Source of the DNA: an uncultured Gammaproteobacteria bacterium
GTDB taxonomy: Bacteria > Pseudomonadota > Gammaproteobacteria > Steroidobacterales > UBA11654
Reading direction: 5' to 3'
Length of the DNA: 59,990 nt
Assembly (NCBI GenBank): GCA_902634075.1
Contig: CACPJA010000005.1
Location: 1 to 59,990, forward strand
Each line of letters begins with the position of its first letter. The first letter of the stretch is position 1. The notes under the pieces were generated by a model, which worked only from the letters and a program-made list of their open reading frames with translations, ran no database searches and was not told the origin of the DNA. Made by a program: the position numbers and the translations under genes. This document shows positions 3,002 through 54,281 of the stretch, piece after piece.

Positions 3002-3023
3002 TGCTTTAAAGATTATTAGCTAA

Positions 3024-4349
3024 ATGAGAAATAAGTTAAGAACACTTTTTAAGATCATGGGCATTATCTCCTCCAGAGAATACTATGGTTTTGTCGGACC
3101 TCATAGTTACTTAACTGATTCACAAAAGAAAGCTATTGCCGCTGAGCTAGATTATCCAAATGAAAACACCTTAAGAGAATATGAAAGAAGATTTTCTCAA
3201 TTGATTGGTATTGGAACAGGTGTAAGTTTTGCAGCCGGAAGAATGGCTTTTTATAGTTTAATGAAAGTTCTGGAACTAAAGGCAGGCGATGAAGTTATCC
3301 TTCTTGGATTTACATGTTCGGTTATGCCTAATGCCATTTTAAGGATGGGTGCTAAGCCTGTTTATATTGATTTAGATAAAGAAACATTAGGATCGCTCCC
3401 ATCTTCAATTGAAGATAATATTACATCAAAAACTAAAATCATTGTTGCTCAGCATTCGTTTGGCATTCCATGTAAAGTTAATGAAATAGTGGATATAGCC
3501 AAAAAGCATAATATTTTTCTTTTAGAAGATTGTGCCATTTCTATTGAATCCTCTTTAAATAATGTTTCTGTAGGTAATTGGGGAGATGCAGCTATTTTCT
3601 CAACGGATCATACAAAACCAATTAATACATTGATAGGTGGCTTTTTATATTCAAACAATGACGCATTAATGAAGAAAGTTAAAGCCTATCAACAATCTTT
3701 ACCGTATCTTTCAAAAGATCATTCTAAAAGAATTCTTAATCAATTTATTTTTGAGATGCGATTTTTCAATCCTAGTCTTTATGGAATCACTAAATATTTT
3801 AATAGTTTAAATAAGAAGATTATGCAAAATCAGTTTGTTTTTTTAGAACAAGATTATTCCAAGCCTTCTGTAGATAAAACCTCCTACCCTTACCCTGCAA
3901 GATTTCCTTCATTTCTAGCCAAATTAGGCCTTTATGAAATAGAACACTGGTCAGATGATAAGCATAACAGGGTAAAAATGATGAATGCTTATCTAGATAT
4001 AATAAAAAAATATGGTTTGGAAGAGATCGTACCTTCAGCTTATTTCTCAAGTGATTTTAATGTGATTCCTCATAGATTTTGTTTCGTTTCAGAGAACGCA
4101 AAACAAATTAAATCCAATATACAGAATAAAATTGATATAGATTCTATCTGGTTTGATAAGCCTATAGTTTGCACAGAAGATCTGATGGCATTGGACTATA
4201 AGCCTGGTTTATGTCAATCTGCAGAAAAAATCAGTAGAATGATAATCAATTTTCCCACAAACATAGAAAAGAAATACCACAATAAGTTACTTAATTTATT
4301 TGAAACAGAAATGGCTTTTTTAAAGAATCAACCCAAAAAAAATGAGTGA
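3024..4349 (+). CDS. DegT/DnrJ/EryC1-family PLP aminotransferase (sugar aminotransferase)
   Basis: A fold-type I PLP enzyme of the DegT/DnrJ/EryC1/StrS family (441 aa, longer than the usual 360-400). The segment DEVILLGFTCSVMPNAILRMG and an LEDCA stretch carry the cofactor-binding region. The predicted Schiff-base lysine is K198 in DHTKPINT. Having Lys rather than His here argues for an aminotransferase and against the RfbH-type 3-dehydratase of CDP-dideoxysugar pathways. It directly precedes, and overlaps by 8 nt, the CDP-glucose 4,6-dehydratase gene. A role in transaminating a CDP-4-keto-6-deoxyhexose (or its isomer) is therefore a reasonable inference. Amino donor is probably glutamate, as in the family. 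Confidence 0.78.
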   Translation: MRNKLRTLFKIMGIISSREYYGFVGPHSYLTDSQKKAIAAELDYPNENTLREYERRFSQLIGIGTGVSFAAGRMAFYSLMKVLELKAGDEVILLGFTCSVMPNAILRMGAKPVYIDLDKETLGSLPSSIEDNITSKTKIIVAQHSFGIPCKVNEIVDIAKKHNIFLLEDCAISIESSLNNVSVGNWGDAAIFSTDHTKPINTLIGGFLYSNNDALMKKVKAYQQSLPYLSKDHSKRILNQFIFEMRFFNPSLYGITKYFNSLNKKIMQNQFVFLEQDYSKPSVDKTSYPYPARFPSFLAKLGLYEIEHWSDDKHNRVKMMNAYLDIIKKYGLEEIVPSAYFSSDFNVIPHRFCFVSENAKQIKSNIQNKIDIDSIWFDKPIVCTEDLMALDYKPGLCQSAEKISRMIINFPTNIEKKYHNKLLNLFETEMAFLKNQPKKNE

Positions 4350-5451
4350 AGAATTTAAAAATATATATAGAGGGAAGACAGTTCTTGTTACCGGGCATTC
4401 AGGATTCAAGGGCAGCTGGCTTTCATTATGGTTGAACCAATTAGGGGCAAAGGTTGTAGGAATTTCTATTGATATACCTTCAGAGCCCTCTAATTTTAAG
4501 GTTTCTGGTCTAGAAGACTCTATAGAAAGTCATTTTATTGATATTAGAGATTTTGAATTACTAACTAAAGTATTTCAGAAGGTGAAACCCGATTATGTTT
4601 TTCATCTTGCGGCACAAGCTTTAGTCAGAAAATCACACATTGAGCCTCTATCAACTTATACAACTAATGCTATTGGCACAGCCAATATTTTAGAGTGCTT
4701 AAGGTTGATGGAAGAAAGAACGATTGCAGTTTTGATAACAAGCGATAAAGCCTATGATAATGTTGAATGGAACTGGGGCTATAGAGAAAATGATCGCCTT
4801 GGTGGCAAGGATCCTTATAGCGCCTCTAAAGGTATGGCAGAATTAGCAATTAAAGCTTACTTTCATTCATATTTTATCGATAGTTCCGAAAATATCAGTC
4901 TAGGTATAGCCAGAGCAGGCAATGTTATTGGCGGAGGTGATTGGGCTGAGGATAGATTAGTCCCAGACTGTGTTAAGTGTTGGTCTGACAAAAGATCTGT
5001 AGAAATAAGGAAACCTAACTCAACTAGACCATGGCAACACGTTTTAGAACCTCTCAGTGGATATTTAAGTCTAGGGCATCAGTTGTCTGTTGATAAAAGA
5101 GTAAATGGTGAAGCTTATAACTTTGGACCCAATTCCAATCAAGATAGAACTGTTAAAGATCTAATTATTGAAATGAAGAAATATTGGTCTGAAGCAGAAT
5201 GGAAAGACACTTCAGGTGGAGAAGAGGGTTTTCATGAAGCAAGTTTGCTAAAGCTAAATTGTGACAAGGCATTAAAAGATTTAGATTGGAGGCCAACATT
5301 AAATTTTCCAGAAACTGTAAAGATGACTTCAGAATGGTATAACAACTTTTATGAAAATAAATTACATGATATGTCTGATTTCACTATTCAACAGATCAGC
5401 GAGTATACAAGTCTAGCAAAGAAAAGAGGTATGTCATGGACCAACAAATAA
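4342..5451 (+). CDS. rfbG: CDP-glucose 4,6-dehydratase
   Basis: Converts CDP-D-glucose to CDP-4-keto-6-deoxy-D-glucose, the entry step to CDP-6-deoxy and 3,6-dideoxy sugars of O-antigens. It is an extended SDR of 369 aa. The Rossmann motif TGHSGFKGSW has glycines at 18, 21 and 24, with the active-site Tyr159 and Lys163 in DPYSASK. Family-typical stretches include FHLAAQALVRKS, TSDKAYDN and the RPWQHVLEPLSGYL block. It follows the aminotransferase gene with an 8-nt overlap and overlaps the cupin gene downstream by 16 nt. rfbF, which supplies CDP-glucose, is two genes further. The operon context makes this assignment secure. Confidence 0.93.
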   Translation: MSEEFKNIYRGKTVLVTGHSGFKGSWLSLWLNQLGAKVVGISIDIPSEPSNFKVSGLEDSIESHFIDIRDFELLTKVFQKVKPDYVFHLAAQALVRKSHIEPLSTYTTNAIGTANILECLRLMEERTIAVLITSDKAYDNVEWNWGYRENDRLGGKDPYSASKGMAELAIKAYFHSYFIDSSENISLGIARAGNVIGGGDWAEDRLVPDCVKCWSDKRSVEIRKPNSTRPWQHVLEPLSGYLSLGHQLSVDKRVNGEAYNFGPNSNQDRTVKDLIIEMKKYWSEAEWKDTSGGEEGFHEASLLKLNCDKALKDLDWRPTLNFPETVKMTSEWYNNFYENKLHDMSDFTIQQISEYTSLAKKRGMSWTNK

Positions 5452-5888
5452 TCCAAGACCTTGTTTTAACAGAATTAAATATTATAAAAACAGATGGAGG
5501 TGATGTCTTACATGGTATGAAGAAATCTGATCCCGGCTTCATAAGTTTTGGGGAAGCCTACTTTTCAACTGTCACCAAAAATTCAATCAAGGCTTGGAAA
5601 AGACATCATAAAATGACTATGAACTTGATCGTTCCATCTGGAGAGATAGGCTTTGGTATTTTTGATGATAGAGAAGAATCAGAGTCATTTGGTAAATTTA
5701 GTACAATTGTCCTATCACAGTCGAATTATTTCAGATTAACAGTACCACCTATGCTTTGGTTAGGTTTTAAAGGTTTATCAAAAGATTTAAGCTATTTACT
5801 TAACATAGCTGATATTGCACATGATCCTAATGAAGTGGATCATCTAGATTTGAACGAGATTGATTATGATTGGAGTTATTTAAAATGA
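5436..5888 (+). CDS. RmlC-like cupin, putative keto-sugar 3,5-epimerase
   Basis: A 150-aa cupin related to dTDP-4-dehydrorhamnose 3,5-epimerases but lacking their N-terminal arm (about 180 aa is usual). Recognisable parts are GDVLHGMK near residue 25, a histidine pair in KRHHKMT where RmlC has its catalytic HxQ region, the VPSGEIGFGIFDDRE strand pair, and a C-terminal HDPNE-x-D block ending in YDW. It sits between rfbG and rfbF with overlaps at both ends (16 nt and 4 nt), so it most likely acts on the CDP-4-keto-6-deoxyhexose from RfbG. Whether it epimerises C3, C5 or both, or isomerises the keto group, cannot be decided here. Confidence 0.7.
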   Translation: MDQQIIQDLVLTELNIIKTDGGDVLHGMKKSDPGFISFGEAYFSTVTKNSIKAWKRHHKMTMNLIVPSGEIGFGIFDDREESESFGKFSTIVLSQSNYFRLTVPPMLWLGFKGLSKDLSYLLNIADIAHDPNEVDHLDLNEIDYDWSYLK

Positions 5889-6643
5889 AAGTAGTAATTT
5901 TAGCTGGAGGTTTTGGAACAAGGCTTTCAGAGTTCACAGATGTTATTCCAAAACCTATGGCAAAAGTAGGAGATAAGCCAATTATCTGGCATGTCATGAA
6001 CATATTTGCAAAATATGGCCACAACGATTTTTATATAGCATGTGGATATAAGTCAGAAGTTATTAAAGACTACTTTCTAAATTACAGGAGTTTAAATTCT
6101 GATTTTTCTATAGACCTATCTAATGGCCAGATAAAAATTCATAATAATGAAACCGAGGACTGGAAGATTACACTTGTGGATACCGGCAGAGATACTATGA
6201 CAGGTGGAAGAGTTAAAAGATTGCAGAGGTATGTAGATAACGACAAGTTCTTTCTTACCTATGGTGATGGATTAGCTGATATAGATATTAACTCATTACT
6301 AGATTTTCATGTTAACCATAAGAAATTAGCTACTGTTACAGCAGTAAGACCCGCAGCAAGATTTGGCGAACTAAATATTAAAGATAACGTAGTTAAAACA
6401 TTTCAAGAGAAGCCTCAAATTACTCAAGGCTGGATCAATGGGGGTTTCTTTGTTTTAGAATCAGAATTCCTAGATTTTATCAAAGGTGATGCAACAGTTT
6501 TAGAAAAGGAGCCACTAGAGAAAGTTACGAGTATGGGCGAACTTATGGCATATACTCATGAGGGTTTTTGGCAGTGTATGGACACAAAAAGGGATTTAGA
6601 TTTACTTAATGAAATGTGGTCTTCTAAAACTAATCCTTGGTAA
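5885..6643 (+). CDS. rfbF: glucose-1-phosphate cytidylyltransferase
   Basis: Makes CDP-glucose from CTP and glucose 1-phosphate, feeding RfbG. The N-terminal nucleotidyltransferase signature LAGGFGTRLSEFT is at residues 6-18, followed by PKPMAKVGDKPIIWH. The sugar-binding stretch NGGFFVLESEF lies in the second half, and the C-terminal part has FWQCMDTKRDLDLLNE, all typical of RfbF. I placed the start at the ATG at 5885, which forms an ATGA overlap with the cupin stop; the longer frame from 5870 adds five residues not found in the family. Length 252 aa is normal. The gene order rfbG-cupin-rfbF shows a dedicated CDP-sugar module. Confidence 0.93.
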   Translation: MKVVILAGGFGTRLSEFTDVIPKPMAKVGDKPIIWHVMNIFAKYGHNDFYIACGYKSEVIKDYFLNYRSLNSDFSIDLSNGQIKIHNNETEDWKITLVDTGRDTMTGGRVKRLQRYVDNDKFFLTYGDGLADIDINSLLDFHVNHKKLATVTAVRPAARFGELNIKDNVVKTFQEKPQITQGWINGGFFVLESEFLDFIKGDATVLEKEPLEKVTSMGELMAYTHEGFWQCMDTKRDLDLLNEMWSSKTNPW

Positions 6644-42927: not shown

Positions 42928-43947
42928 TTAATTAGCTCTTCCAGTGATACGTTTCATAAAATCAGATTGTATGAATAATATCAAACCCGCGAATAAAATT
43001 GCACAAGCCCATTCTGTGCCTGCAATGAAAATAACTTCGTAAGATGTTTCCCATCCTTTGAAGCTATAGACTGTAATTACTAGACCAATAAACAAAGACC
43101 ATATCAACCATCTCATTTTCTGACTGAGGGGTAATCCATACATTTGAGTAACTACAAATACACCCAAGAAACCAAATAAGAACATTGGCCAATTATCTCC
43201 ATTCATTAAGGCTACAAGAAGGGCATGAATGACCACCATAACTTCAACAAAGATTGTCCATTTAGGGTTTAGGTGAGCACGCGTGAAAAACAGACTGCCT
43301 TGCAGCAACAATAGAAACATGTATAAAAACCCAACAATATGGCCTGAAGTTCCCACCATGGGGTGATACCAAAAGGTGTAGATTGTAGCCCAAGCAAAGT
43401 AATACCCGTGATATTTTCTTAATCCACTCGATGCTGCTGTGACAAAATTTAGCTTTTTACCAAAAAACATTCCTCGACGTTGATTTTCCATCATAAGCAC
43501 AACAAACAATAAGACTATTACCGACCATTGTGCTGATTGTTCTATGACGTCTTGTGCTAGCCCGTCATACCAGATCGCTGTCTGAATTAGATGTAAGGTA
43601 ATAAAAATAGCGTTGGCTGCTAGTGCAGCGATATTGAACCAATGAAGACCATCGGTGTATTGTGGACGTTCTTTTTGGGCTGCATATATCAACCACCATA
43701 TAGAAACTTGATGTCCAATGTATAGACCCCAGGCACTTAACCTGGTTATAAAATTTGGTTCATTGAGTTGCCAAAAATACCAAAACGGCACGCCTTCAGG
43801 CTTGGGAAGTAATTGTTGTTCTAGAAATAGATACTGCTCTGCCACCCATATAAATGCTGAAAATACCAAACTAAAAGCAACCCCCAGCTTGAGTGCTTTT
43901 GATGAATTAATATTTTCGACTGTCGCTGTCATTATTCTTTGGAGCAT
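42928..43947 (-). CDS. unrecognised polytopic membrane protein
   Basis: 339 aa and about ten hydrophobic segments, so an integral inner-membrane protein. I do not recognise the family. Notable are several histidines in or at the ends of membrane segments (GLYIGHQVS, GLHWFN, ITLHLIQ, KYHGYYFA, FWYHPM, SGHIVGF, VVIHALL), together with many Trp residues. Such histidines could bind heme or metal or take part in proton movement, but this is speculation. It lies two bases upstream of the PEBP gene on the same strand and diverges from the TerB-like gene. A start at 43932 is possible. Confidence 0.7.
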   Translation of the reverse strand: MLQRIMTATVENINSSKALKLGVAFSLVFSAFIWVAEQYLFLEQQLLPKPEGVPFWYFWQLNEPNFITRLSAWGLYIGHQVSIWWLIYAAQKERPQYTDGLHWFNIAALAANAIFITLHLIQTAIWYDGLAQDVIEQSAQWSVIVLLFVVLMMENQRRGMFFGKKLNFVTAASSGLRKYHGYYFAWATIYTFWYHPMVGTSGHIVGFLYMFLLLLQGSLFFTRAHLNPKWTIFVEVMVVIHALLVALMNGDNWPMFLFGFLGVFVVTQMYGLPLSQKMRWLIWSLFIGLVITVYSFKGWETSYEVIFIAGTEWACAILFAGLILFIQSDFMKRITGRAN

Positions 43948-44028: not shown

Positions 44029-44475
44029 ATGGTAGATTTCTTTAAGTTCTTTAAATCTAAAAAAGATCAAGTCTCAGAAGAGGAGCCTTTGGATCCTGTC
44101 CAAATGGCAACAGCAGTTTTACTGATCGAAATGGCTCGAGCTGATTTTGATCAGGCTGAAAATGAAAATGAGGTGATCAAGCAATTACTCAAGGATCATT
44201 TTGATCTTAACAACCAGGGGACTAACAATCTTTTTGAGGAGGCAGAAAACATAGCCGATGATTCTATTTCCTTGCATGAGTTTACTAGAACGCTTCACGA
44301 AACTCTTGAACCTGAAGCTAAAGAGGAAATTATCGAGATGTTATGGCGATTGGCAATGTCAGATGACGATCTAGACAAGCACGAGGATTACTTGGTTAGA
44401 AAGGTGGCAGATCTGCTCTATGTTTCTAATACTATTGTTCTCAAAATTAGACACAAGGTCACACAAGAATCTTAA
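44029..44475 (+). CDS. TerB-like protein
   Basis: A 148-aa helical, acidic protein matching the TerB family: DPVQMATAVLLIEMARADFD at the start of the helical repeat and the paired LWRLAMSDDDLDKHEDYLVRK. TerB-like domains are found in tellurite-resistance and membrane-stress contexts, but single chromosomal copies like this one have no assigned role. The conserved acidic clusters could bind metal. Its stop overlaps the convergent PepSY gene's stop within a shared TTAA. Confidence 0.82.
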   Translation: MVDFFKFFKSKKDQVSEEEPLDPVQMATAVLLIEMARADFDQAENENEVIKQLLKDHFDLNNQGTNNLFEEAENIADDSISLHEFTRTLHETLEPEAKEEIIEMLWRLAMSDDDLDKHEDYLVRKVADLLYVSNTIVLKIRHKVTQES

Positions 44476-45545
44476 GCTCTTTTTCTGTTTGAGTAATAAA
44501 TAATAAATCCAGAGATCAGCCATAGGATGACTATAAAACCTATGAATGTCATCATCAAGCCACCAAAAGATCCAAAGTAATAGCCGCTATGAATGGGTAG
44601 AAGGTATTTTCTAAAACCCTCGCCTTTTTCTAATTTTCCAGCAGGGTAAATACCAATGAGATCTCCGTTCGCCCCATTGATCAATATATCTTGTCTAAAC
44701 ATTTTGTCATCGAAGAAGGCAAACCAATAGTTTGGGCTGTGATCTGAGGCGAAGGAGTAGGCCCCCAGATAGTAGTTATCAGGCAGGACAGATTGTGCAG
44801 TTTTCAGTGCCAAATCTGCATTGATATAGTTCATATCCAAAGACCCATGATTTTGATGTGATGACTCCATCAAACTTGAGAACACCGATCGACCAGCATT
44901 TTTATCCTCCCAAGCTGTAATACTCATGAGAATCCCTGTTGCGGATGTAGCAATTAGAAAAAAAGCGGCAATAAAGCCTAATGATCTATGCATCCGATTA
45001 ATAAGGGGTAATTTTTTGGCACTTTGCCTGGTTTTAAAGAATAGATATAAACCTGAGAGAGACATTAATATTGTGGCTAATCCAAGAATACAGACAATAT
45101 AAACTCCTGCTTTATCGAATAATATCCATCGATGTAACACGGTCAAAGTTCCAATCCAACCAGATCTCATCATAGAATGTTCATTAATGATACGTCGTTC
45201 ATACTGATCAAAATTAATAATGATGGATGACATATGAGGATTATCTGGATCTCTTCCTCCCATTAAAACTGTGGCTGAATTTGGAGTAGAGGGAGAGGGC
45301 AGCATCACATGGGCAATATTAAATCCAGGTTCTTGATCACTGACAGCCTTAAGTAGTTCACTCGGGCTAGCGGCTATGATTCTGGATTCAACCTTATTCG
45401 TTTCTGGTGTCAAGAGTTGCATCAGCAAGTACCTCTCTTGTGCAACACTCCCAGATGTAATCTGGAAAACAATGAAAATACCTAAGATAAACGCAAGCCA
45501 CCTGTGAATTATCTTAATTGCCTTGGCAGAAAAGATATTTTTCAC
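44472..45545 (-). CDS. PepSY-associated transmembrane protein
   Basis: 357 aa. Four membrane segments, the first in RWLAFILGIFIVFQITSGS after an IIHRW start, then LHRWILFDKAGVYIVCILGL, IAAFFLIATSATGILMS, and the C-terminal MTFIGFIVILWLISGFI. A large periplasmic loop lies between segments, as in PiuB-like iron-regulated PepSY proteins. These often work with siderophore or flavin-dependent ferric reduction. Here it overlaps dgcN by 4 nt, which is an unusual partner. Confidence 0.82.
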   Translation of the reverse strand: MKNIFSAKAIKIIHRWLAFILGIFIVFQITSGSVAQERYLLMQLLTPETNKVESRIIAASPSELLKAVSDQEPGFNIAHVMLPSPSTPNSATVLMGGRDPDNPHMSSIIINFDQYERRIINEHSMMRSGWIGTLTVLHRWILFDKAGVYIVCILGLATILMSLSGLYLFFKTRQSAKKLPLINRMHRSLGFIAAFFLIATSATGILMSITAWEDKNAGRSVFSSLMESSHQNHGSLDMNYINADLALKTAQSVLPDNYYLGAYSFASDHSPNYWFAFFDDKMFRQDILINGANGDLIGIYPAGKLEKGEGFRKYLLPIHSGYYFGSFGGLMMTFIGFIVILWLISGFIIYYSNRKRA

Positions 45546-46588
45546 AATAGACTATCTTTGATTGATTCTGAGATAGCCCTGATACTTTCCTTCATTGGGT
45601 TCACCACAGGGATCTTAAGTTCATTTTGAAGTTTGAGAGCATCGATCTCTTGTTTTGAGTTGATACAAACTCCCATAACATTCTTACCGTAGGTTTTAAT
45701 TAGGTTAATTTCGTCCTTAAGGCTTGGTAACACACAGCCAACATCTTCAAAATTATCAAAATATTCTCGATCAAATGGATGAACAAGAATCACACCGTCC
45801 ACATCGCCTGATAATAGTAATTCTGATCCGCATGGGCCTGATGGGTTTCGAAGAGATGATTGGCCTTCAATTAGAATAATTTCAGGGTTGCTTTCTTTTG
45901 CGCATTCTAAGATAGCCTTTTCGAGCTCCCCTGACACAAAATCATTCAAGGTAGAATCAAGAATGAAGCCGTGTTTGAACCCTTGTAAAAATCCGGTTTG
46001 TCCTGTGTAGATAACTTCAGTTTTAATATCACTTTCAGTGAGATCTTGAACAAGAAATTGACACACAGTCCTTTTACCGGTCGCACAATCGGTTCCCAAA
46101 ACCGCAATCTTAGGTGTCTTTAAATCAAGTATTTTCCCACTCCAAAATGAGAGTTCATCAATGGTTTTTGGTTTACGAATATCATAAATGGTTGTTCTCG
46201 ATGTGGATGCAAGTGCCTTAAATTCCGCATCCTCTGATAACACTTCATGAAGTCCGCTAACAACGTCGATATTATTCTTTATGGAATCTTCTACAATGCC
46301 TCGGTGCTCAATGGGTAATTTTCCACCCCCAAAAGCAACACCTATGACGATATAATCAGGTTTGTTATCCATGGTCTCAAGCGAAAGAGCTAGATTTTTG
46401 AATATGGGGACATTTTTGGCACAGTGGCTAACAATATCATCGCTCATTTGATTATGATGCTGATGATCAATAACACCTAATATCTCGAATCGATCCGAAA
46501 GACGCAACAAACCATGTGCAGTCTTAGCATGTAGATCATCTAACAAGCCTCCACTGTAGACCAAAGCTGTGCCCTTTATGTTATTCAT
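45542..46588 (-). CDS. DUF1611 protein, DgcN-like N-acyltransferase of D-glutamate catabolism
   Basis: 348 aa from the ATG at 46588, preceded by an AGGAG ribosome site at 6 nt; the TTG two codons upstream lacks one. A P-loop is visible as LGTDCATGKRT, typical of the DUF1611 family, and an N-terminal Rossmann-like domain has VIGVAFGGGKLP. DgcN was described as N-acetylating D-glutamate, after which DgcA epimerises the product. The neighbour downstream on the transcript is a PepSY gene; the upstream neighbour is a DgcA-like gene overlapping by 8 nt. Assignment to DgcN rests on family and this pairing. Confidence 0.78.
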   Translation of the reverse strand: MNNIKGTALVYSGGLLDDLHAKTAHGLLRLSDRFEILGVIDHQHHNQMSDDIVSHCAKNVPIFKNLALSLETMDNKPDYIVIGVAFGGGKLPIEHRGIVEDSIKNNIDVVSGLHEVLSEDAEFKALASTSRTTIYDIRKPKTIDELSFWSGKILDLKTPKIAVLGTDCATGKRTVCQFLVQDLTESDIKTEVIYTGQTGFLQGFKHGFILDSTLNDFVSGELEKAILECAKESNPEIILIEGQSSLRNPSGPCGSELLLSGDVDGVILVHPFDREYFDNFEDVGCVLPSLKDEINLIKTYGKNVMGVCINSKQEIDALKLQNELKIPVVNPMKESIRAISESIKDSLL

Positions 46589-47642
46589 GCTCAACTCCTA
46601 TGCCTATCTTTTCGTTGGTACGCATAACTCCTGACTCACAAATATAGCCTCCAGATACCAGATCCCATCCCAAATCAAAAAAACCATCCAAATCAATGTA
46701 ATGAGTATTTTTGCATGATAGGGCTGTATGTAAAGCGGCAGAAATGCTGACTTTACTCTCATCAAAACAACCCCACATGATTTTAATGCCATTCTCTTCG
46801 GCTAGCGAAGCAATTTTTCTTGCTGCAAAAATACCGCCACATTTCATCAGTTTTATATTAAAAACCCCAAATGGTTTTGGAGAACGAGCAAGAGAGACGG
46901 CATGATCCAAGTTTTGAAGACTTTCATCAGCAACACAAATATTTCTGATTTCTTTTGGGAAATATAGCATTTCTTGATTTTGATCAGTTTCCATTGGCTG
47001 CTCAATTAATTCCAAGCCAAGATCCTGAGTTTCTTCATAAAATTTAATCAAATCTTTTTTTGAATAACCCCGATTGGCATCAACCCTTATTTTTATTTTT
47101 TCAGGTTTTAAAGCAAAAAGTTCTTTCATCCTTTCAATGTCTTCCTCAAGACAGTCACCAATTTTGATTTTAAGAATTGAGAAGCCATTTTCAATATGCT
47201 TTTTTGCCATCTCCAAGGTTTTTTCTGTAGATGAAACACCGATCGTTATCGAGGTATTAAAACTCTCATATTTATTACCCAATGCTTGTGTCAACGACTT
47301 TTTCTCACGTTTTGCCCATAAGTCATGAATTGCAATATCCACAGCAGTCAAAGCCTCGGGTGTTGAGGATAACTCTGAACCAATCCACTTGAATATTTCC
47401 TCACTAGGGGTGACTTCTTTGTCAATCAATGATGATGAGAATGTGTTTAGCTTATTAAAGCAAGCCCTGGCAGCCTTCTCTGAGTCATCTCTAGTTGCAC
47501 AGGAGCCTATTCCAGTATTACCATCATCATCTTCAATTCTGATAAAAGTATTTTTGATTGACTCATGAACATGTCCTGCAATTGCATAAGGTTCTTTGAG
47601 TTGCATATCATGAGTTTTAACGCTAACTTTTTTAATTTTCAT
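46581..47642 (-). CDS. enolase-superfamily epimerase, DgcA-like (N-acetyl-D-glutamate racemase candidate)
   Basis: 353 aa from the ATG at 47642. It belongs to the muconate-lactonising/dipeptide-epimerase branch of the enolase superfamily. The two active-site lysines are in ILKIKIGD and NIKLMKCGG. The three metal ligands are in RVDANRGY, LIEQPM and VADES, and the C-terminal DLDGFFDLG fits the dipeptide-epimerase group. Together with the DgcN-like gene it would turn D-glutamate into L-glutamate through N-acetylated forms. A true L-Ala-D/L-Glu epimerase in peptidoglycan recycling is the main alternative. Confidence 0.82.
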   Translation of the reverse strand: MKIKKVSVKTHDMQLKEPYAIAGHVHESIKNTFIRIEDDDGNTGIGSCATRDDSEKAARACFNKLNTFSSSLIDKEVTPSEEIFKWIGSELSSTPEALTAVDIAIHDLWAKREKKSLTQALGNKYESFNTSITIGVSSTEKTLEMAKKHIENGFSILKIKIGDCLEEDIERMKELFALKPEKIKIRVDANRGYSKKDLIKFYEETQDLGLELIEQPMETDQNQEMLYFPKEIRNICVADESLQNLDHAVSLARSPKPFGVFNIKLMKCGGIFAARKIASLAEENGIKIMWGCFDESKVSISAALHTALSCKNTHYIDLDGFFDLGWDLVSGGYICESGVMRTNEKIGIGVEHE

Positions 47643-47652
47643 CAATTAGATT

Positions 47653-48228
47653 TTATAGGATTTGATTTAAATTAATACAAACAACATTATTGGTAAATTC
47701 ATACAAAGGGATAATCAACTTAATTGATTGAATGACAACTATGGCAATGAATGGAGAAAAATCCATCCCCGCAGGATACGGCAACCTTTTCTGTATTGGA
47801 TAGAGGATAGGAACGACAAGTTGTCTAATGAAGTCAGAAAAACTATTGTGTTGATTGCTTAGAATCCAGCTGAAAATTGCATGAGCGATGATGGCAAAGA
47901 AAAGAATGTTCAAAACAAAATGAATTAAGCTACCAACAGATAGGCCGATAAGTTGAAGAAGATTGGGAGCTACAATACATGAGAATTGCGTCATTACCCA
48001 AAGGGCGAAGAATTTTATCAAAAGACAAAGGGCAACAATGAGATAGATAAAGGTTTTGTTATTAATGCTTCCACGTAAGGGTCTCAGGATAGAATCAGTC
48101 ATTAGAATGACCGATCGGTGAATCTGATTATTAACCGAGACCCAATAGGCAGAAAATACCCTCAGCATTAAAATAAGAATTACAAAATCTATAAGAGTGG
48201 TAAAAAGGAATTGGAGTAGATTATTCAT
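47653..48228 (-). CDS. yggT: YggT family membrane protein
   Basis: 191 aa with two copies of a YggT-like unit, each two membrane segments followed by a conserved polar loop: VNNQIHRSVILMTDSILRPLRG in the first half and FIRQLVVPILYPIQKRLPYP in the second, which ends with the FSPFIAIVVIQ strand. Linked with osmotic or cell-envelope functions but not well defined. It follows proC by 20 bp, the common yggS-proC-yggT order. Confidence 0.9.
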   Translation of the reverse strand: MNNLLQFLFTTLIDFVILILMLRVFSAYWVSVNNQIHRSVILMTDSILRPLRGSINNKTFIYLIVALCLLIKFFALWVMTQFSCIVAPNLLQLIGLSVGSLIHFVLNILFFAIIAHAIFSWILSNQHNSFSDFIRQLVVPILYPIQKRLPYPAGMDFSPFIAIVVIQSIKLIIPLYEFTNNVVCINLNQIL

Positions 48229-48248: not shown

Positions 48249-49064
48249 TTAATCTTTTCCAAGATCAACTGATCTTTGCCTTGCTGCATCAATAGCTTCA
48301 TCCCAGATATCGTCTAATTTTTTTTCTTCCAAGAAATCAAACGCAGCTTCTGTTGTTCCGCCAGGAGACATGACTTTCTTTTTTAGGGTTAATAGATCAT
48401 CAGCACTGTTTAATGCCAGCTGACTCGAGCCAATGGCTGTTTGGATAGAAAGAGTTTCTGCTATTTCTTCTGGAATACCTGCCTTGATTGCAGCACTTTT
48501 TAAAATATGCATCATTTGAAAGAAGTAAGCAGGACCACTTCCAGATACTGCTGTCACAGCATGCATCCATTCCTCTTCTTGAATCCAGATGGTTTTTCCA
48601 ACGGAATTAAATATATAGGTTGCCATAACAATATCCGATTCATTTAAATTTGATTGGATCAATGCGGATACTCCACGACCAACTAGACAGGGTGTATTAG
48701 GCATAACTCTGCATATCTTCTTATCCTCGCCAAATAAATTCTTCATGGTCTCCATTTCAATACCAGCAGCAACTGAAATAATCATAGGGCTATTCTCTGA
48801 CCCTAAATCAAGGCCTTCTGCGACATTGGTAAATATTTGAGGTTTTACGGCCATAATCATTATTTCGACTTGTGATGCGATAGCCTGATTATCTGATTCA
48901 ACATTTAATTGCTTATTAAGGATAGATAGAACATCACGTCGAGACTCTGAAGGGTCTGAAACAAAAATTTTAGAGGCTTCATGACCATGCAGGATGAGAC
49001 CTCTAATGATTGCTTCAGCAACCATACCTCCTCCTATAAAGCCAATTTTTTTATTTTCATACAT
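48249..49064 (-). CDS. proC: pyrroline-5-carboxylate reductase
   Basis: The last step of proline synthesis, reducing P5C with NAD(P)H. 271 aa: Rossmann motif IGFIGGGMVAEAIIRG, VMPNTPCLVGRGVSALI, TAVSGSGPAYFFQMM and the VMSPGGTTEAAF signature near the C-terminus. Upstream yggS ends 11 bp away. It shares a transcript with the dgcA-dgcN-like pair, so glutamate and proline metabolism may be linked here. Confidence 0.95.
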   Translation of the reverse strand: MYENKKIGFIGGGMVAEAIIRGLILHGHEASKIFVSDPSESRRDVLSILNKQLNVESDNQAIASQVEIMIMAVKPQIFTNVAEGLDLGSENSPMIISVAAGIEMETMKNLFGEDKKICRVMPNTPCLVGRGVSALIQSNLNESDIVMATYIFNSVGKTIWIQEEEWMHAVTAVSGSGPAYFFQMMHILKSAAIKAGIPEEIAETLSIQTAIGSSQLALNSADDLLTLKKKVMSPGGTTEAAFDFLEEKKLDDIWDEAIDAARQRSVDLGKD

Positions 49065-49075
49065 TGTTTTTATTA

Positions 49076-49747
49076 TTAAGTTGATCGTTTACCAAATAAT
49101 GCGGTACCTATTCTAATCATATTTGAACGATTTTGAATGGCTAAATCATAATCTTCTGACATTCCCATAGAAATGGTATCCAAGTTGAAACCTTGATGGT
49201 TGAGGTTGTCAAATGCCTCGGTTAGTTTTTTGAAGTATTTTGAACGCTCATTAACTCGAAGGTCTCCACTGGTCATTCCCATTAAACCTCTTAGCCTGAT
49301 ATTTTTAAGATCTTTGACTTTCTCTGCAAGAGCAGGGAGATCATCAAACACGACACTATCACGTGGATCCTCGTTTTGAAGCTTGACTTGCAAACAAACA
49401 TTCATAGGTTCTTCTCTATGTTGGCTGATTTTTTGAGCAATCTTAAAACGTGTAATGGTATGAACCCACTGAAAATATTGAGCGATTTGCTTGGTTTTAT
49501 TCGATTGGATTGAACCAATAAAATGCCAGGTTAAAGAATGTTGGCAGGAATTGATTTTAGATACTGCCTCTTGAAGATAATTTTCCCCAAAATTTCTAAG
49601 ACCACACTTATAGGCTTCATCTATCTCTTTGAGCGTTCTCGTTTTACTGACTGCAATAATTGTGGGCAAGGCTTCTGCATCACCTTCTGATTGCGAGGAT
49701 TTAATAACGGATAATAAATTTTTATAATTTTGCTCAATCTTACTCAT
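49076..49747 (-). CDS. yggS: PLP homeostasis protein YggS (PLPBP)
   Basis: A 223-aa single-domain TIM-barrel PLP carrier that keeps free pyridoxal phosphate and amino-acid pools balanced. PLP is held by Lys35 in IIAVSKTRT; NFGENYLQEA, WHFIGSIQSNK, LRGLMGM and MSEDYDLAI are all standard. It overlaps the PyrK-like gene by 4 nt. Confidence 0.95.
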   Translation of the reverse strand: MSKIEQNYKNLLSVIKSSQSEGDAEALPTIIAVSKTRTLKEIDEAYKCGLRNFGENYLQEAVSKINSCQHSLTWHFIGSIQSNKTKQIAQYFQWVHTITRFKIAQKISQHREEPMNVCLQVKLQNEDPRDSVVFDDLPALAEKVKDLKNIRLRGLMGMTSGDLRVNERSKYFKKLTEAFDNLNHQGFNLDTISMGMSEDYDLAIQNRSNMIRIGTALFGKRST

Positions 49748-50619
49748 TGGGGATAGATGGCTTTAGCATCAAAGACAGGGCCATCCACACAGACTCGTTT
49801 CATAGCTATCTGTTCATCTACACTAACCTTCACTGTACAACCGGCGCAGCCACCAATGGCACAGGCCATAAACTCTTCGAGAGATAATTGGCAATCCAAT
49901 TTATGGTTTCTAGCTAATTTTGCTGCAGCTTCAAGCATCACTTCAGGGCCGCAGGCATAGAGGATAATTTTTTCTTTCTCTGAAGGATTGAGTTGGGATA
50001 ACCAAGTATCCACAAGTTCTGTGACATAACCATTATAACAACCTTTAAAGTTTGCCAGGCTGGCTAGTCGACAAGGAATTTGCTTTTCTTCCATGTCTTT
50101 AATTGTTGCAAAATTTGATTGTTCCAACCCTTCAATATTTATCTCAGATTCAGTTGTTTCAAATGGGAACGGAATTTCAGAACCAAAAAAGGCATATGGC
50201 GTCATCTCAGGATTATTTTCTTTAAGATATTCTGCAAGGAATAACACTGGAGGAATCCCAACACCGCCACCAACGAACACAGGTGTTTGTTTGGATAAGT
50301 CGTGACTAAAACCGTTTCCTATTGGCCCCATCATATTCACAGAATCACCGGCTGTCATTTTACTGAGAGCCTCCAAGCCAGGACCTATAATTTTATACAT
50401 GAATTCAACCGTGTCATTGTTTGGGTTAGTTCTCAAATAGGACAAAGGTCTTCTTAGTAGTGTTTGTTCTCCACAATCAACAAAAGCAAACTCACCAGGC
50501 TTAGCCGTCTTAGAGGCCTTAGGAGCCTTTAATGTAATCACAAATTGGTTTTCTTCAAAGGCTTCTTGATGAATTACCTCTGAAGTTTCCTCAAAGATAC
50601 TTGCCTTATGCGTACTCAC
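49744..50619 (-). CDS. pyrK: dihydroorotate dehydrogenase electron-transfer subunit-like protein
   Basis: 291 aa of the ferredoxin reductase-like PyrK family. FAD-binding RRPLSYLRT and the NAD-binding TPVFVGGGVGIPPVLFLA with YACGPEVM are present. The C-terminal cysteine cluster ACAIGGCAGCTVKV and RVCVDGPVF binds a [2Fe-2S] cluster. In its own pathway it hands electrons between NADH and class 1B PyrD. No pyrD lies next to it. It directly follows pyrB (2 bp), which supports a link to pyrimidine synthesis. Confidence 0.83.
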   Translation of the reverse strand: MSTHKASIFEETSEVIHQEAFEENQFVITLKAPKASKTAKPGEFAFVDCGEQTLLRRPLSYLRTNPNNDTVEFMYKIIGPGLEALSKMTAGDSVNMMGPIGNGFSHDLSKQTPVFVGGGVGIPPVLFLAEYLKENNPEMTPYAFFGSEIPFPFETTESEINIEGLEQSNFATIKDMEEKQIPCRLASLANFKGCYNGYVTELVDTWLSQLNPSEKEKIILYACGPEVMLEAAAKLARNHKLDCQLSLEEFMACAIGGCAGCTVKVSVDEQIAMKRVCVDGPVFDAKAIYPQ

Positions 50620-50621: not shown

Positions 50622-51545
50622 TTAGCCCTTTCCTCTTTCTATGATGGATAGAATAGCCATTCTAGTGGCTATACCATTGGTGACTTGTTCCGTGATTACT
50701 GAATGTTCGCCGTCTGCAACTGTGTTTTCAATCTCGACCCCTCGATTCATTGGTCCAGGGTGCATTACAATCACATCTTTTTTACACAGTTTAAGTCGGT
50801 CAGAGGTTAATCCGTAGTCTTTAAAATATTTTGATTGATCCAGGAATTGAGTTTCATCATCCATTCGCTCTTTTTGTACTCTAAGTGTAACTACCACATC
50901 GGCATCTGATAGCGCCGATTCAATATTATCCGTATATTCAGCGCCGTTAAATAATTTCATGTCCGGTTTATAGTCAATAGGTGAAACAATAACAATTTCT
51001 CCAGTACCCATAATGCTTAAACCTTCTGTCAATGACCGAGCAACACGAGAGTGAGATAGGTCTCCCAGGATGACAGTTTTTATATTTTTGAAATCTTTTT
51101 TATGTCGTCTGATGGTCAGAAGATCTAATAAGCCTTGAGTAGGATGAGATATATTAGATTCGCCTGCATTAATTAATCGTGAATTGTGATCAATGTTCTC
51201 TAGGATTTCATCAAATATTCCTGAATGCTTATTGCGGATTACAAAGTAATTAACTCCCATTGCCTCTAGGGATTTTAGGGTATCAAAAAGAGTTTCACCT
51301 TTAGCTCTTGAAGAATGTTCCTCATCGATATTAATAACATCGGCACCTAATTTTCTAGCGGCTATTTGAAAGGAGCTTCGAGTTCTGGTGCTGGGCTCAA
51401 AAAATACGTTTGCTAAGGTTTTATCTTGAAGAATTTTTTCTGAACCGATGGGTTGGTTATCATGATTTAGGAAGTGCTCTGCTGTGTCGAGAATCTCTGT
51501 GATTGTCTCTTGGTTTAAATTCTTTAAGTAGAGAAGATGCTTCAA
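50622..51545 (-). CDS. pyrB: aspartate carbamoyltransferase catalytic subunit
   Basis: The first committed step of pyrimidine synthesis. 307 aa, with FFEPSTRTRSSF (carbamoyl phosphate site), HPTQGLLDLLTI, ILGDLSHSRVARS and HPGPMNRGVEIE. No regulatory subunit PyrI or fused dihydroorotase is adjacent. Overlaps ruvX by 4 nt. In many gammaproteobacteria pyrB follows ruvX and pyrR; pyrR is missing here. Confidence 0.95.
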   Translation of the reverse strand: MKHLLYLKNLNQETITEILDTAEHFLNHDNQPIGSEKILQDKTLANVFFEPSTRTRSSFQIAARKLGADVINIDEEHSSRAKGETLFDTLKSLEAMGVNYFVIRNKHSGIFDEILENIDHNSRLINAGESNISHPTQGLLDLLTIRRHKKDFKNIKTVILGDLSHSRVARSLTEGLSIMGTGEIVIVSPIDYKPDMKLFNGAEYTDNIESALSDADVVVTLRVQKERMDDETQFLDQSKYFKDYGLTSDRLKLCKKDVIVMHPGPMNRGVEIENTVADGEHSVITEQVTNGIATRMAILSIIERGKG

Positions 51546-51979
51546 TTTATCTCCTCAAAATTCATCCACTCTTGAAGAATGATGCTCGCAGCCATGCTAT
51601 CAATCTGTCCTTTCTTTAATTGTCGCTGAAGGATACCTTCTTGTCTTTGTTCTTTCAATTGATCTTTTGCGATTTTAGAAGTGAGATGCTCGTTTACGAA
51701 TTTAATAGAGATACCATACCTTTTTGCTATCCCAGATGAGAAGGCCTTAATATTATCTATTAAAGTCTTGTTACTATTAATGGACTCTTCTGGCACACCA
51801 AAAACAGCACAACTTGGCTTGAAGTCTTCAAAAATCATATCTACCTCAGACCAATCTGGTTCTCCATTATCCATGGATAAAGAGGTTAATGGCGAAGCTG
51901 TCTTAGTGATGGATTGCCCTATAGCTACCCCTGTTTTCTTTAAACCATAATCAAAGGCAATATAGATTTTATGGTCCAT
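51542..51979 (-). CDS. ruvX: Holliday junction resolvase-like YqgF/RuvX
   Basis: 145 aa, RNase H-like fold. AFDYGLKKTGVAIGQS at the N-terminus, with the first catalytic aspartate, then VFGVPEES and FVNEHLTSKIA, and a C-terminal DSMAASIILQEW carrying the last acidic residue. In E. coli the family is linked to 16S rRNA 5' maturation and possibly to recombination. It lies in the conserved gshB-yqgE-ruvX-pyrB string. Confidence 0.93.
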   Translation of the reverse strand: MDHKIYIAFDYGLKKTGVAIGQSITKTASPLTSLSMDNGEPDWSEVDMIFEDFKPSCAVFGVPEESINSNKTLIDNIKAFSSGIAKRYGISIKFVNEHLTSKIAKDQLKEQRQEGILQRQLKKGQIDSMAASIILQEWMNFEEIN

Positions 51980-52000
51980 TCTTAAAGCTTATTAATGATG

Positions 52001-52567
52001 TTAGGCATGACCTATTTCCTCAGAGAGGTTTTGAGCGTTAATTCCTAATGAGCCAATCGATTTTTCCCATCGATCTTGAAAAGGGGTTTTGAATAAAATC
52101 TCATCACTAAAGGGAATAGACAACCAAGAGTTTGTTCTGATTTCAGACTCTAGTTGACCTGCCCCCCAGCCAGAATAGCCAAGAACCAACAAGCAATTAT
52201 CTGGACCCATACCATTGGAGATTGACTCCAAAATATCTTTAGAGGTGGTAATGTTAATCCAATCATTAATTTGGGAGGTGTGTTTCCATGCCCCTTGATT
52301 ATGAATGACGAAACCACGTTCTGTGCCTACAGGGCCGCCTTGGAGTATCGGTGTTGACTCCAACTGCTCATCAGAAGAAATTTGTAGCTCTTCAAGCAGT
52401 TGATTAAGATTGCCTTCTATCGGTCTATTAATAATCAGGCCTAATGACCCAGATTCATTGTGTTCACATATAAGAGTGACTGTTTTAGAAAAGTTAGGAT
52501 CATTCAGACTTGGAGTGGCTATTAAAAATTGGCCTACGAGATTCTCCGAGAGCGTATCCCAAGTCAT
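52001..52567 (-). CDS. yqgE: YqgE/AlgH family protein
   Basis: 188 aa of the UPF0301 family. Recognised by LVGQFLIATPSLNDPNFSKT, GSLGLIINRPIEG, the ILQGGPVGTERGFVIH stretch and LLVLGYSGWGAGQLESEI. The biochemical role is unknown; AlgH in Pseudomonas affects alginate production. Its start overlaps the gshB stop by one base. Confidence 0.95.
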   Translation of the reverse strand: MTWDTLSENLVGQFLIATPSLNDPNFSKTVTLICEHNESGSLGLIINRPIEGNLNQLLEELQISSDEQLESTPILQGGPVGTERGFVIHNQGAWKHTSQINDWINITTSKDILESISNGMGPDNCLLVLGYSGWGAGQLESEIRTNSWLSIPFSDEILFKTPFQDRWEKSIGSLGINAQNLSEEIGHA

Positions 52568-53505
52568 TATTTTTTTGACTCCAGAGTCTCGAAAAAGAAA
52601 CTCGAAACATCCTCGCCACTGTTACGTTTAATTTCCCTCATTCCCGTTGGGCTTGTGATATTGATTTCAGTTAAATAATCACCAATCACATCGATGCCAG
52701 CAAAATAGATCCCATTCTCTAAAAGAGTTGGCCCAATGGTTTCACAGATTTTTTGATCTCCAGATGATAGTTCTTGAGTTTCTCCAGTGGCTCCCATTAC
52801 AAGATTTCCACGGTTATCTTTATCATGGGGTATTCTAGCTAGAACCGTATTGCAATGTTCTCCATAAACAATATGGATTCGTTTATCTCCATGTTTGATT
52901 TCTGGAACATAGACCTGGGCCATAATTGTAGTAGCACCAAGATTGGTGATGGTTTCAAAGATTGAATGTGCATTTAGATCATTCTTTTCGACAACAAAAA
53001 CTGATTTTCCACCCATGCCATCTAGGGGCTTAACGACAATTTTTTCTTCAGCATCTAAAAAAGCCTTAATTTCGTTGAATGAGGAGGTAACCAAAGTTTT
53101 TGGTGTAAGAGATGGAAAGAGTGAGATCGAAACTTTTTCATTAAAATTTCTCAATGCTGAGGGATGATTTATCACCTTAACCCCGGTGTTCTCTGCCAGA
53201 TCTAATACATAAGTAGAGTAGATATATTCCATATTAAACGGAGGGTCTTTTCGCATAAGAATCACATCAAAATCAGCTAATGAATATTCATTCTGATTTG
53301 AAAATTCGAACCATTTTTCGTTGTTATCCTTAACCGAAAGTATCTTTCCTTTGGCTAAAGGACGGCCATCAATAATTTTAAGATCCTCTTGTTGGAAATA
53401 CGTCAGTTCATAATTTCTATCTTGTGCAGCAAGCAATAAATCAAGAGTTCCATCTTTTTCAGGAACAATCTTTTCAATAGGGTCCATGACTACTGCTAAT
53501 TTCAT
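52567..53505 (-). CDS. gshB: glutathione synthetase
   Basis: ATP-grasp enzyme of 312 aa adding glycine to gamma-glutamylcysteine. N-terminus LAVVMDPIEKIVPEKDGTLD, RKDPPFNMEYIYSTY, VVKPLDGMGGKSVF (ATP-binding loop) and GIDVIGDYLTEINITSPTGM, all standard. gshA is not in the window. Same strand and order as in other gammaproteobacteria (rsmE-gshB-yqgE). Confidence 0.96.
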   Translation of the reverse strand: MKLAVVMDPIEKIVPEKDGTLDLLLAAQDRNYELTYFQQEDLKIIDGRPLAKGKILSVKDNNEKWFEFSNQNEYSLADFDVILMRKDPPFNMEYIYSTYVLDLAENTGVKVINHPSALRNFNEKVSISLFPSLTPKTLVTSSFNEIKAFLDAEEKIVVKPLDGMGGKSVFVVEKNDLNAHSIFETITNLGATTIMAQVYVPEIKHGDKRIHIVYGEHCNTVLARIPHDKDNRGNLVMGATGETQELSSGDQKICETIGPTLLENGIYFAGIDVIGDYLTEINITSPTGMREIKRNSGEDVSSFFFETLESKK

Positions 53506-53540
53506 TTTTCTTCTCTGGATGTCTTTATATCTATTTTAAG

Positions 53541-54281
53541 CTAATTAGCAAGATCTCCATAGAGGTATTGGAGAATACTGATGGCCATAATTGGAGCGGT
53601 TTCAGTTCTTAATAATCTTGGTCCAGTTTTGATAATTTTATAGCCGCTATCTATAGCTGTCTCTTTTTCTGCGTTTGAAAAACCTCCTTCTGGGCCAACA
53701 ACGAGAGTTGTTTTTGAAATTTGTTTAGAGCTAAAGCTGTCTTCTCCTGTGGTATCGAGAAAATACGATTGATGACTTTTGTAATCATTGAGTAGTTGTT
53801 TGCTAAAAACCTGTGGCTCAATAATTTCAGGTAATTTGACACGACCAGATTGTTCTGCTGCGCTAATTATGATCTTTTGCCAATGCCTCATTTTATTTTC
53901 AATATTCGATTCATTTAACCTCACAACGGTATTTTGGCTTGTCATTGGGATAATTTTATTTACCCCTAACTCGGTTGCCTTTTGCATGACAAAGTCCATG
54001 CGTTGACTTCTTGAAATTGATTGTAACAAGGTGATGTTTAGAGGTGATTCTGATTGTATTGATTTTTTTGATAGCAACTTAACATCGACTTGTCGCTTTG
54101 TTGCCTTAAGAATCTGAGCTTCCCATTCTGAGCCTGAATTGTTAAATAAAACTAGATCTTGTCCATTTTTTAACCTTAGAACACGAGTTAAGTAGTGTGC
54201 ACTTTCTCCTTTGAGGCTTAGAACATCTTTTTTCTCAGGGATTGAGTTATGAAAGAATCTTTGTTTACGTTTTTGCTTCAT
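53541..54281 (-). CDS. rsmE: 16S rRNA (uracil-1498-N3)-methyltransferase
   Basis: 246 aa, SPOUT-type knotted methyltransferase with an N-terminal PUA-like RNA-binding domain (HYLTRVLRLKNGQDLVLF). Catalytic half: MQKATELGVNKIIPM, ISAAEQSGRVKLPEI, VGPEGGFSNAE and LGPRILRTETA-like GPRLLRTETAPIMAISILQ. It heads the 12-gene minus-strand series that ends with the PepSY gene at 44472. Confidence 0.95.
   Translation of the reverse strand: MKQKRKQRFFHNSIPEKKDVLSLKGESAHYLTRVLRLKNGQDLVLFNNSGSEWEAQILKATKRQVDVKLLSKKSIQSESPLNITLLQSISRSQRMDFVMQKATELGVNKIIPMTSQNTVVRLNESNIENKMRHWQKIIISAAEQSGRVKLPEIIEPQVFSKQLLNDYKSHQSYFLDTTGEDSFSSKQISKTTLVVGPEGGFSNAEKETAIDSGYKIIKTGPRLLRTETAPIMAISILQYLYGDLAN

Follow-up and report, generated by a model that had tools for sequence, protein, structure and literature searches.

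Dipeptide epimerases of the enolase superfamily are known from Methylococcus capsulatus (PDB entries 3RIT and 3RO6), Thermotoga maritima, Bacillus subtilis (1JPM), and Bacteroides (3IJQ), and YcjG, which epimerises L-Ala-D-Glu, has been placed in the route by which Escherichia coli uses tripeptide (PMC9928106). When E. coli cannot make diaminopimelic acid (DAP), the same source reports, tripeptide supplied to it can be used by way of either Mpl or a tripeptide peptidase. Mpl, a recycling enzyme, is described as dispensable for growth, and the Mur ligase genes as essential for bacterial survival (PMC3060825). In the DgcN–DgcA pathway, named in Shewanella (PMC10845958), a DUF1611 protein (DgcN) and an enolase-family racemase (DgcA) form a two-gene unit. 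A unit of the same two folds lies in the stretch of DNA analysed here (the window; 59,990 nucleotides (nt), positions 1 to 59,990 of contig CACPJA010000005.1 from an uncultured gammaproteobacterium), where an enolase-family gene overlaps a DUF1611 gene, which in turn overlaps a gene for a PepSY_TM membrane protein.

With moderate confidence, we read the first two genes as a murein-peptide salvage pair, made up of a dipeptide epimerase and its DUF1611 partner, in a bacterial family most of whose members probably depend on Mpl. The family (f1) comprises 11 genomes of small-genome marine bacteria related to Woeseia, namely, the window's own genome (G000), nine others of its genus, and one of another genus; the larger relatives mentioned below are bigger genomes of the same order, and the control set for the gene searches consisted of 14 named genomes. 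The epimerase and DUF1611 genes are adjacent in all 11 family genomes, always directly after yggT, and because of this recurrence the adjacency is more than chance. More surprising than the pair itself is the gap in wall-peptide synthesis that the gene content of the family shows, with no MurI found, MurC, MurD, and MurE missing in most members, and Mpl and MurF kept.

Gene pair in the window

Three minus-strand genes at 47642-44472 overlap in series in the window sequence:

46581..47642, minus strand: predicted enolase-superfamily dipeptide epimerase (AEE), 353 residues from ATG; Pfam MR_MLE_N/C, closest structure 3RIT
45542..46588, minus strand: DUF1611 protein, 348 residues from ATG; Rossmann-like N-domain and P-loop C-domain
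44472..45545, minus strand: PepSY_TM membrane protein, GTG start; Pfam PepSY_TM, 106.6 bits (cut-off, 28.8)

The full open reading frames (ORFs) span 46581-47645 for the enolase-family protein (ATG at 47642), 45542-46594 for the DUF1611 protein (ATG at 46588), and 44472-45545 for the PepSY protein. Direct reading of the sequence gives an overlap of 8 nt between the epimerase and DUF1611 genes (ATGAATAA, 46588-46581) and of 4 nt between the DUF1611 and PepSY genes (GTGA, 45545-45542), in agreement with the preliminary description of this DNA.

Comparison with DgcN–DgcA

The pair had at first been likened to DgcN–DgcA. In its arrangement as a two-gene unit, its DUF1611 and enolase-family folds, and its catalytic residues, it does resemble DgcN (NF041892, 7XRJ) and DgcA (NF042940), but membership of these two protein families does not hold. 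The DUF1611 protein scores 109.4 bits with the DgcN equivalog model NF041892 (cut-off, 480), and the enolase-family protein 148.1 bits with the DgcA equivalog model NF042940 (cut-off, 400). Three DgcN-type pairs of the same order reach 460.6, 471.8, and 467.0 bits with the DgcN model, all slightly under the cut-off, and 418.6, 427.4, and 373.4 bits with the DgcA model, two of the three being over it. In an enolase tree of 61 rows (57 proteins, including five of the DgcA type and 11 of family f1, and four PDB chains), the five DgcA-type rows split from the 56 others with a support of 100/100, and 3RIT falls within the pair's own clade. The gene order is epimerase–DUF1611 in family f1 as against DgcN–DgcA in the five DgcN-type loci read. 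Since both cut-offs are missed by far and the tree clade is separate, membership of the pair in DgcN–DgcA was rejected, and the pair is very probably not DgcN/DgcA.

A catabolic pathway for D-glutamate, in which the DUF1611 protein would turn D-Glu into N-acetyl-D-Glu and the enolase-family enzyme would racemise this to N-acetyl-L-Glu, would nevertheless agree with the shared folds and kind of adjacency, with the alignment of 7XRJ (titled N-acetyltransferase DgcN) at a Z-score of 31, and with the presence of the epimerase's DxD motif in the five DgcA-type rows. It would also agree with 23 columns that are invariant across 36 DUF1611 proteins of the clade and two DgcN-type proteins, which suggest a chemistry shared between the clade and DgcN without naming the reaction. 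The distance of the window proteins from the scores of the DgcN-type pairs (461-472 and 373-427 bits) and the place of 3RIT inside the pair's clade, apart from the DgcA-type rows, render this pathway unlikely here, as do four genomes (G016, G030, G076, and G136) that hold a DUF1611 protein of the pair's clade together with weaker hits in the DgcN score range (the latter not scanned singly).

Structure and residues of the epimerase

The enolase-family protein matches MR_MLE_N and MR_MLE_C of Pfam over the cut-offs, and its closest solved structure by sequence is the dipeptide epimerase 3RIT (261 bits), the M. capsulatus enzyme solved with L-Arg-D-Lys. The structure model (predicted local distance difference test (pLDDT), 93.6) is also matched best by 3RIT (Z-score, 51.0; root-mean-squared deviation, 1.4; 349 aligned residues), and the first four rows of the fold comparison (3RIT, 3RO6, 3JVA, and 3Q45; Z-scores, 51.0-45.3) are dipeptide epimerases, with the lower of which the N-succinyl Arg/Lys racemase 2P88 (Z-score, 45.0) ties. 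The fold is common to the known dipeptide epimerases from M. capsulatus, T. maritima, B. subtilis, and Bacteroides, to which the sequence identity is at best 39% (3RIT) and from which the window protein differs at the specificity position 24. In 1JPM numbering, Lys160, Lys162, Asp191, Glu219, Asp244, and Lys268 are kept in all 57 aligned proteins, including the 11 of the family. The DxD pair Asp321/Asp323 is likewise kept in 57 of 57, and this motif does not discriminate because the five DgcA-type rows carry it too. We take the KxK motif and the third Lys to be catalytic, the Asp/Glu/Asp residues to be metal ligands, and the DxD motif to bind the ammonium group of the dipeptide; all three features are shared with 1JPM and 3RIT. 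The protein is very probably a dipeptide epimerase, and a murein dipeptide is a reasonably plausible substrate for it.

The epimerases of G000 and its near relative G009 match those of G002, G003, G004, G006, and G008 at 75-77% and that of G005 at 65%, unlike the other genes with a G005 match, 13 of 15 of which are closer to G005 (the exceptions being msrB and lpxL). From these comparisons it looks like the epimerase gene of G000/G009, and this gene alone, was replaced in place.

The DUF1611 partner protein

The DUF1611 protein matches PF07755 (160.7 bits) and PF17396 (DUF1611_N; 70.3 bits), both over the cut-offs, and the P-loop reads GTDCATGKRT. In a phmmer search of the PDB, it matches 2G0T (TM0796; 159 bits), 2OBN (78 bits), and 7XRJ (DgcN; 73 bits). 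Its structure model (pLDDT, 94.2) gives near-whole-length fold matches to 2OBN (Z-score, 38.4), 2G0T (38.0), and 7XRJ (31.2). TM0796 and Ava_3511 (2OBN), which thus share the whole-length fold at Z-scores of ~38 and the sequence at 34 and 26% identity, respectively, are DUF1611 proteins without a stated function. The P-loop domain next resembles dethiobiotin synthetase, CTP synthase, cobyrinic acid a,c-diamide synthase, and MinD/ParA-type ATPases (Z-scores, 13-14); since the synthetases and the MinD/ParA-type ATPases tie, no activity was assigned to the DUF1611 protein from the P-loop fold. By analogy with DgcN, it may tentatively be regarded as an N-acylating partner of the epimerase.

Loss of wall-peptide genes in the family

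MurI was found in none of the 11 family genomes, as against three of three larger relatives (controls, ten of 14, eight of them over the cut-off), and MurD was over the cut-off in one family genome (G007), as against two of two larger relatives (controls, 12 of 14). Hits to the Mur ligase domains number three in eight family genomes, two in G002, six in G007, and five in G009, compared with eight in each of two larger relatives. In the ten genomes other than G007, MurC, MurD, and MurE are missing, and all the hits were assigned to MurF, Mpl, and FolC, the assignment to FolC resting on length alone in most genomes; the five hits of G009 correspond to MurF, a split Mpl, and two FolC-like genes. 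Mpl is present in 11 of 11 (seven by profile or blastp; G004, G005, G007, and G010 by eye), with scores of 489.7 in G000 and 464.2 in G008 for the NCBIfam model (cut-off, 388.7). MurF is likewise present in 11 of 11, over the NCBIfam cut-off in G008 (319.1 versus 288.6) and as the long ligase found by blastp in the ten others, that of G000 being a fragment. FolC of G000 scores 311.8 (cut-off, 162.65).

The division and wall cluster of G008, examined with the G091 cluster as the query, is intact except for the ligases, and FtsZ has moved. Nine family genomes have the order MraZ–FtsZ–RsmH–(small gene)–FtsI–MraY, and the eight with longer contigs continue with FtsW–MurG–MurB–Ddl, without murE, murF, murD, and murC. 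The coordinates in G008 (end of FtsI, 1987; MraY, 2050-3129; FtsW, 3131-4282; MurG, 4275-5402; MurB, 5399-6268) leave no space for the missing mur ligases between the genes, and the products score over their cut-offs (MraY, 423/192; FtsW, 374/337.5; MurG, 251.4/250.25; MurB, 340.5/259; Ddl, 355/243). No MraY was detected in G000 or G010, and the window's own genome is therefore too incomplete to show its cluster. Assembly gaps as the cause of the missing mur genes were rejected, on the grounds of the contiguous clusters and of an incompleteness product of 1.4e-9 over the 11 genomes, a rough figure that assumes independence.

Two side observations concern these genomes. In all nine family genomes read, ftsZ belongs to the front part of the cluster, with mraZ before it and rsmH after it (L224:17436-18611), and in G091 it lies after ftsA. 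G009 has broken reading frames in the DUF1611, PepSY, MurB, and Mpl genes (L032, L267, and L300), and assembly errors are the likely cause because several of its genes are affected.

A dapB match was obtained in two of the 11 family genomes (G004 and G007), under the cut-off in both (73 and 62 bits), as against over the cut-off in two of two larger relatives (controls, 11 of 14); G004 carries dapB–dapA–dapD–lysA without mur genes. Judged by gene content, most members seem unable to make meso-DAP (mDAP) or the stem peptide by known routes, and an Mpl-dependent wall is probable in most of them. As in the Mpl recycling pathway, Mpl and MurF over the cut-offs and the lipid II machinery are present in the family; Mpl elsewhere is accessory (PMC3060825), whereas here ten of 11 genomes lack MurC, MurD, and MurE and all 11 lack MurI. 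The MurD2–MurL pathway of Xanthomonas likewise answers a lack of MurI, but it needs a MurD-type ligase (PMC8788868), which was not found in ten of the 11 family genomes; these ten have no Mur ligase beyond MurF and Mpl, MurL itself not having been searched. Another MurI-less way to D-Glu is the bifunctional DapF/glutamate racemase of Chlamydia (PMC5885031). The DapF of G007 scores 181 with the DapF model (cut-off, 115) and 90 with the bifunctional model (cut-off, 350), and tblastn gave no dapF match in the part of G008 examined, dapF not having been searched in the other family genomes.

Neighbours of DUF1611 relatives in other genomes

The wider survey covered the best 80 DUF1611 relatives among at least 479 confirmed candidates in public genomes, a partner gene being one within 400 nt and on the same strand as the DUF1611 gene. 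The 80 loci include seven of family f1 as well as L123, L135, and L142, which belong to G091, G136, and G016, respectively. An epimerase gene stands beside the DUF1611 gene in 56 loci, downstream in 32 and upstream in 24, a count that includes six ORF calls with an implausibly long overlap with DUF1611, of >340 nt (L084, L103, L104, L109, L120, and L141). In 13 of the 80, the downstream partner is instead an Orr-like racemase of the pyridoxal 5'-phosphate (PLP) type (score for that of G016, 352; cut-off, 480), and 11 have neither partner. By these counts, one DUF1611 clade stands beside two unrelated types of racemase, and such a clade, with either an epimerase or an unrelated PLP racemase as its partner, offers a handle on the function of DUF1611. 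The Orr-like loci (L044:2176-4427, L124, L128, L129, L131-L135, L138-L140, L142, and L143) show a 4-nt overlap in 11 of 13. In two loci from Acidobacteria (L125:7074-7895 and L126:4783-5604), the DUF1611 gene is followed by one for a 273-residue protein that by eye resembles S-adenosylmethionine-dependent methyltransferases, and neither locus has a racemase gene within 400 nt of DUF1611.

The preliminary description also proposed a tie to peptidoglycan-derived D-amino acids, which is favoured by the wall-gene losses of the family and by some neighbours of the pair in other phyla. Two loci from Bacteroidota encode NamZ and a GH3/beta-lactamase protein near the pair (scanned in L089, by clustering in L093), an S13 D-Ala-D-Ala carboxypeptidase gene is a neighbour in a locus from Calditrichia (Calditrichota; L074), and by eye L088 and L116 have peptide ABC transporter genes beside it. 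Elsewhere, the neighbours are not wall-related. Four Marinimicrobia loci (L073, scanned; L075, L076, and L078, by clustering) have the unit together with genes for an amidohydrolase, a membrane protein (without a Pfam match in L073), and a cysteine dioxygenase, three of the four also carrying an S9-type peptidase gene by eye.

Proposed role of the pair

In the scheme we favour, ready-made L-Ala-D-Glu-DAP tripeptide would be joined to uridine diphosphate N-acetylmuramic acid (UDP-MurNAc) by Mpl and completed by MurF. Surplus peptide would yield L-Ala-D-Glu, which after epimerisation would serve as a source of L-Ala and L-Glu. We infer both the substrate and the direction of the epimerase, which would convert L,D-dipeptides and L,L-dipeptides into each other, L-Ala-D-Glu and L-Ala-L-Glu being the likeliest of them. 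The DUF1611 protein would most likely target the D-residue of this dipeptide at its amino group, through an N-acyl transfer by analogy with DgcN, and the pair would thus move L-Ala-D-Glu out of (or into) the tripeptide pool. That the epimerase is kept in 11 of 11 genomes in an Mpl-dependent setting fits such an L-Ala-D-Glu branch. It is possible, although we hold this part with less confidence, that the family bar one member builds its wall from scavenged murein tripeptides, with the pair serving as a side branch for D-Glu dipeptides. Peptide import may involve a binding protein of the SBP_bac_5 (OppA) type, which was found in six of the 11 family genomes, G000 included (controls, 11 of 14); the best NCBIfam match of the G000 protein is OppA (502 bits; cut-off, 947). 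In G000 and G008, the binding protein belongs to a peptide ABC transporter operon that is flanked by an mnmG-like and an rsmG-like gene (L291:7557-12696 and L292; names by eye).

Several observations weigh against this scheme. On the side of the enzyme, the nearest solved epimerase, 3RIT, holds a cationic dipeptide and not L-Ala-D-Glu; the NCBIfam model for L-Ala-D/L-Glu epimerase (NF041118) gives 173.1 bits against a cut-off of 500; and at position 24, where the Bacillus enzyme has Arg, eight of the 11 family members have His, two Arg, and one Lys, so that the exact dipeptide is not fixed by sequence. On the side of the pathway, the S66 L,D-carboxypeptidase was found in none of 14 genomes, larger relatives included (controls, six of 14), so that one standard recycling enzyme is missing (AmpG, AmpD, NagZ, and MpaA were not searched), and an OppA-type binding protein was not found in five of the 11 family genomes. 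The dapB matches are under the cut-off, and divergent DAP genes could therefore escape the search. Among 46 other carriers of the pair picked from the 80 loci, it coexists with MurI over the cut-off in 18 (23 with any match), the comparison being with the 14 named controls (MurI matched in ten, over the cut-off in eight) and not with a matched set; the pair is accordingly not bound to the loss of D-Glu synthesis and not merely a MurI substitute. Finally, contig C14 of G007 (L266:2529-11931) carries murE–murD–murC–dapF–(unnamed)–lysA–dapD–dapA–dapB, and the loss is thus not universal in the family. In this island, the unnamed gene has no NCBIfam match and by eye resembles a peptidase or a deacylase, and lysA and dapB are under their cut-offs. 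The island is absent from the corresponding site of G008, where the homologues (40-66%) of the flanking genes lie close together with one 208-residue ORF between them. Contamination as the source of these mur genes was rejected, given that most of the flanking genes match the G008 order at 40-66% and that the G+C contents of this contig and of another G007 contig are equal (0.336 and 0.338).

Ordinary catabolism of dietary dipeptides, cationic or other, with the wall-gene losses as a separate matter, would suit the L-Arg-D-Lys in 3RIT and the Marinimicrobia operons that join the pair to an S9-type peptidase (by eye), an amidohydrolase, and a cysteine dioxygenase; it is nonetheless improbable for a pair that all 11 small genomes retain inside a housekeeping series and that has wall-related neighbours in Bacteroidota and Calditrichota. 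Least probable of all is a biosynthetic unit, in which DUF1611 as an ATP-dependent ligase would make L-Ala-L-Glu and the epimerase convert it to L-Ala-D-Glu, feeding a route to the Mpl tripeptide that needs no MurC, MurD, or MurI, since this idea, for all its fit to a family without MurI and, except in G007, without MurC, MurD, and MurE, to the likeness of the P-loop domain to dethiobiotin synthetase, CTP synthase, and cobyrinic acid a,c-diamide synthase, and to the housekeeping series around the pair in all 11 genomes, meets a fold that singles out no ligase (MinD/ParA-type ATPases score alike), a probably external supply of mDAP in any case (dapB not found in nine of 11), no identified gene for mDAP addition, and the occurrence of the pair in genomes with MurI.

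If murein-peptide salvage is the correct reading, a plankton lineage with Mpl entry alone depends on other bacteria for wall parts, and seawater peptidoglycan gains a direct anabolic consumer; the pair may help cells live on the wall fragments of others, and the occurrence of the relatives in environmental genomes might be partly explained in this way. In the literature searched (titles and the starts of abstracts, few subscription papers), neither a wall pathway with Mpl only nor a DUF1611 protein with this epimerase was found; PMC9418006 describes another reduced marine lineage, and Mpl did not come up in it, no search aimed at Mpl having been made there.

PepSY gene and upstream neighbours

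Downstream of the pair come, in each family genome, terB on the opposite strand (no terB ORF was called in G009) and a membrane gene, with the PepSY gene between them and the pair in G000 and G009. Both G009 and G010 have a broken DUF1611 frame. PepSY homologues (58-61%) occur at other loci in G004, G006, and G008, where a gene that by eye resembles PepSY genes lies convergent to them; the remaining six of the 11 family genomes gave no match. A functional link between the PepSY gene and the pair, which the preliminary description presented as joined, is not borne out by the two of 11 family genomes in which they adjoin, and PepSY was rejected as a pathway member, being beside the pair in two genomes and elsewhere in three. 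Because it adjoins the pair in G000 and G009 only, we judge it from its distribution to be a recent passenger.

The same description correctly placed proC and yggS upstream in the series, both being over the NCBIfam cut-offs, and yggT is over the Pfam cut-off. The tie to proline and PLP handling that it drew from this arrangement finds no support, because proC, yggS, and yggT form one same-strand run with the pair in seven of the 80 loci, all of family f1. The genes upstream of the pair are as follows:

47653..48228, minus strand: yggT; Pfam YGGT, 61.5 bits (cut-off, 27); 10 nt upstream of the epimerase ATG
48249..49064, minus strand: proC; NCBIfam proC, 232 bits (cut-off, 196.75)
49076..49747, minus strand: yggS; NCBIfam TIGR00044, 190.6 bits (cut-off, 106.25)
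49744-50619, minus strand: gene like that of the dihydroorotate dehydrogenase electron-transfer subunit; NCBIfam, 138 bits, under the cut-off of 219
50622-51545, minus strand: pyrB; NCBIfam, 351.7 bits (cut-off, 263)
51542..54281, minus strand: presumably ruvX, yqgE, gshB, and rsmE, judged from the sequence; start of the co-oriented series, with a gene order matching ten other family genomes

The series at 54281-44472 thus consists of twelve co-oriented genes with a largest gap of 35 nt, and the epimerase, DUF1611, and PepSY genes form its end. Promoter-like matches (32 versus 32.8 expected) and terminator-like matches (8 versus 7.3 expected) within the series are at the level of chance, and a single transcript across 54281-44472 is plausible from this layout. 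Farther downstream, window positions 42928-43947 encode a 339-residue membrane protein, which has no Pfam match at E 0.001 and is conserved near the pair in ten other family genomes.

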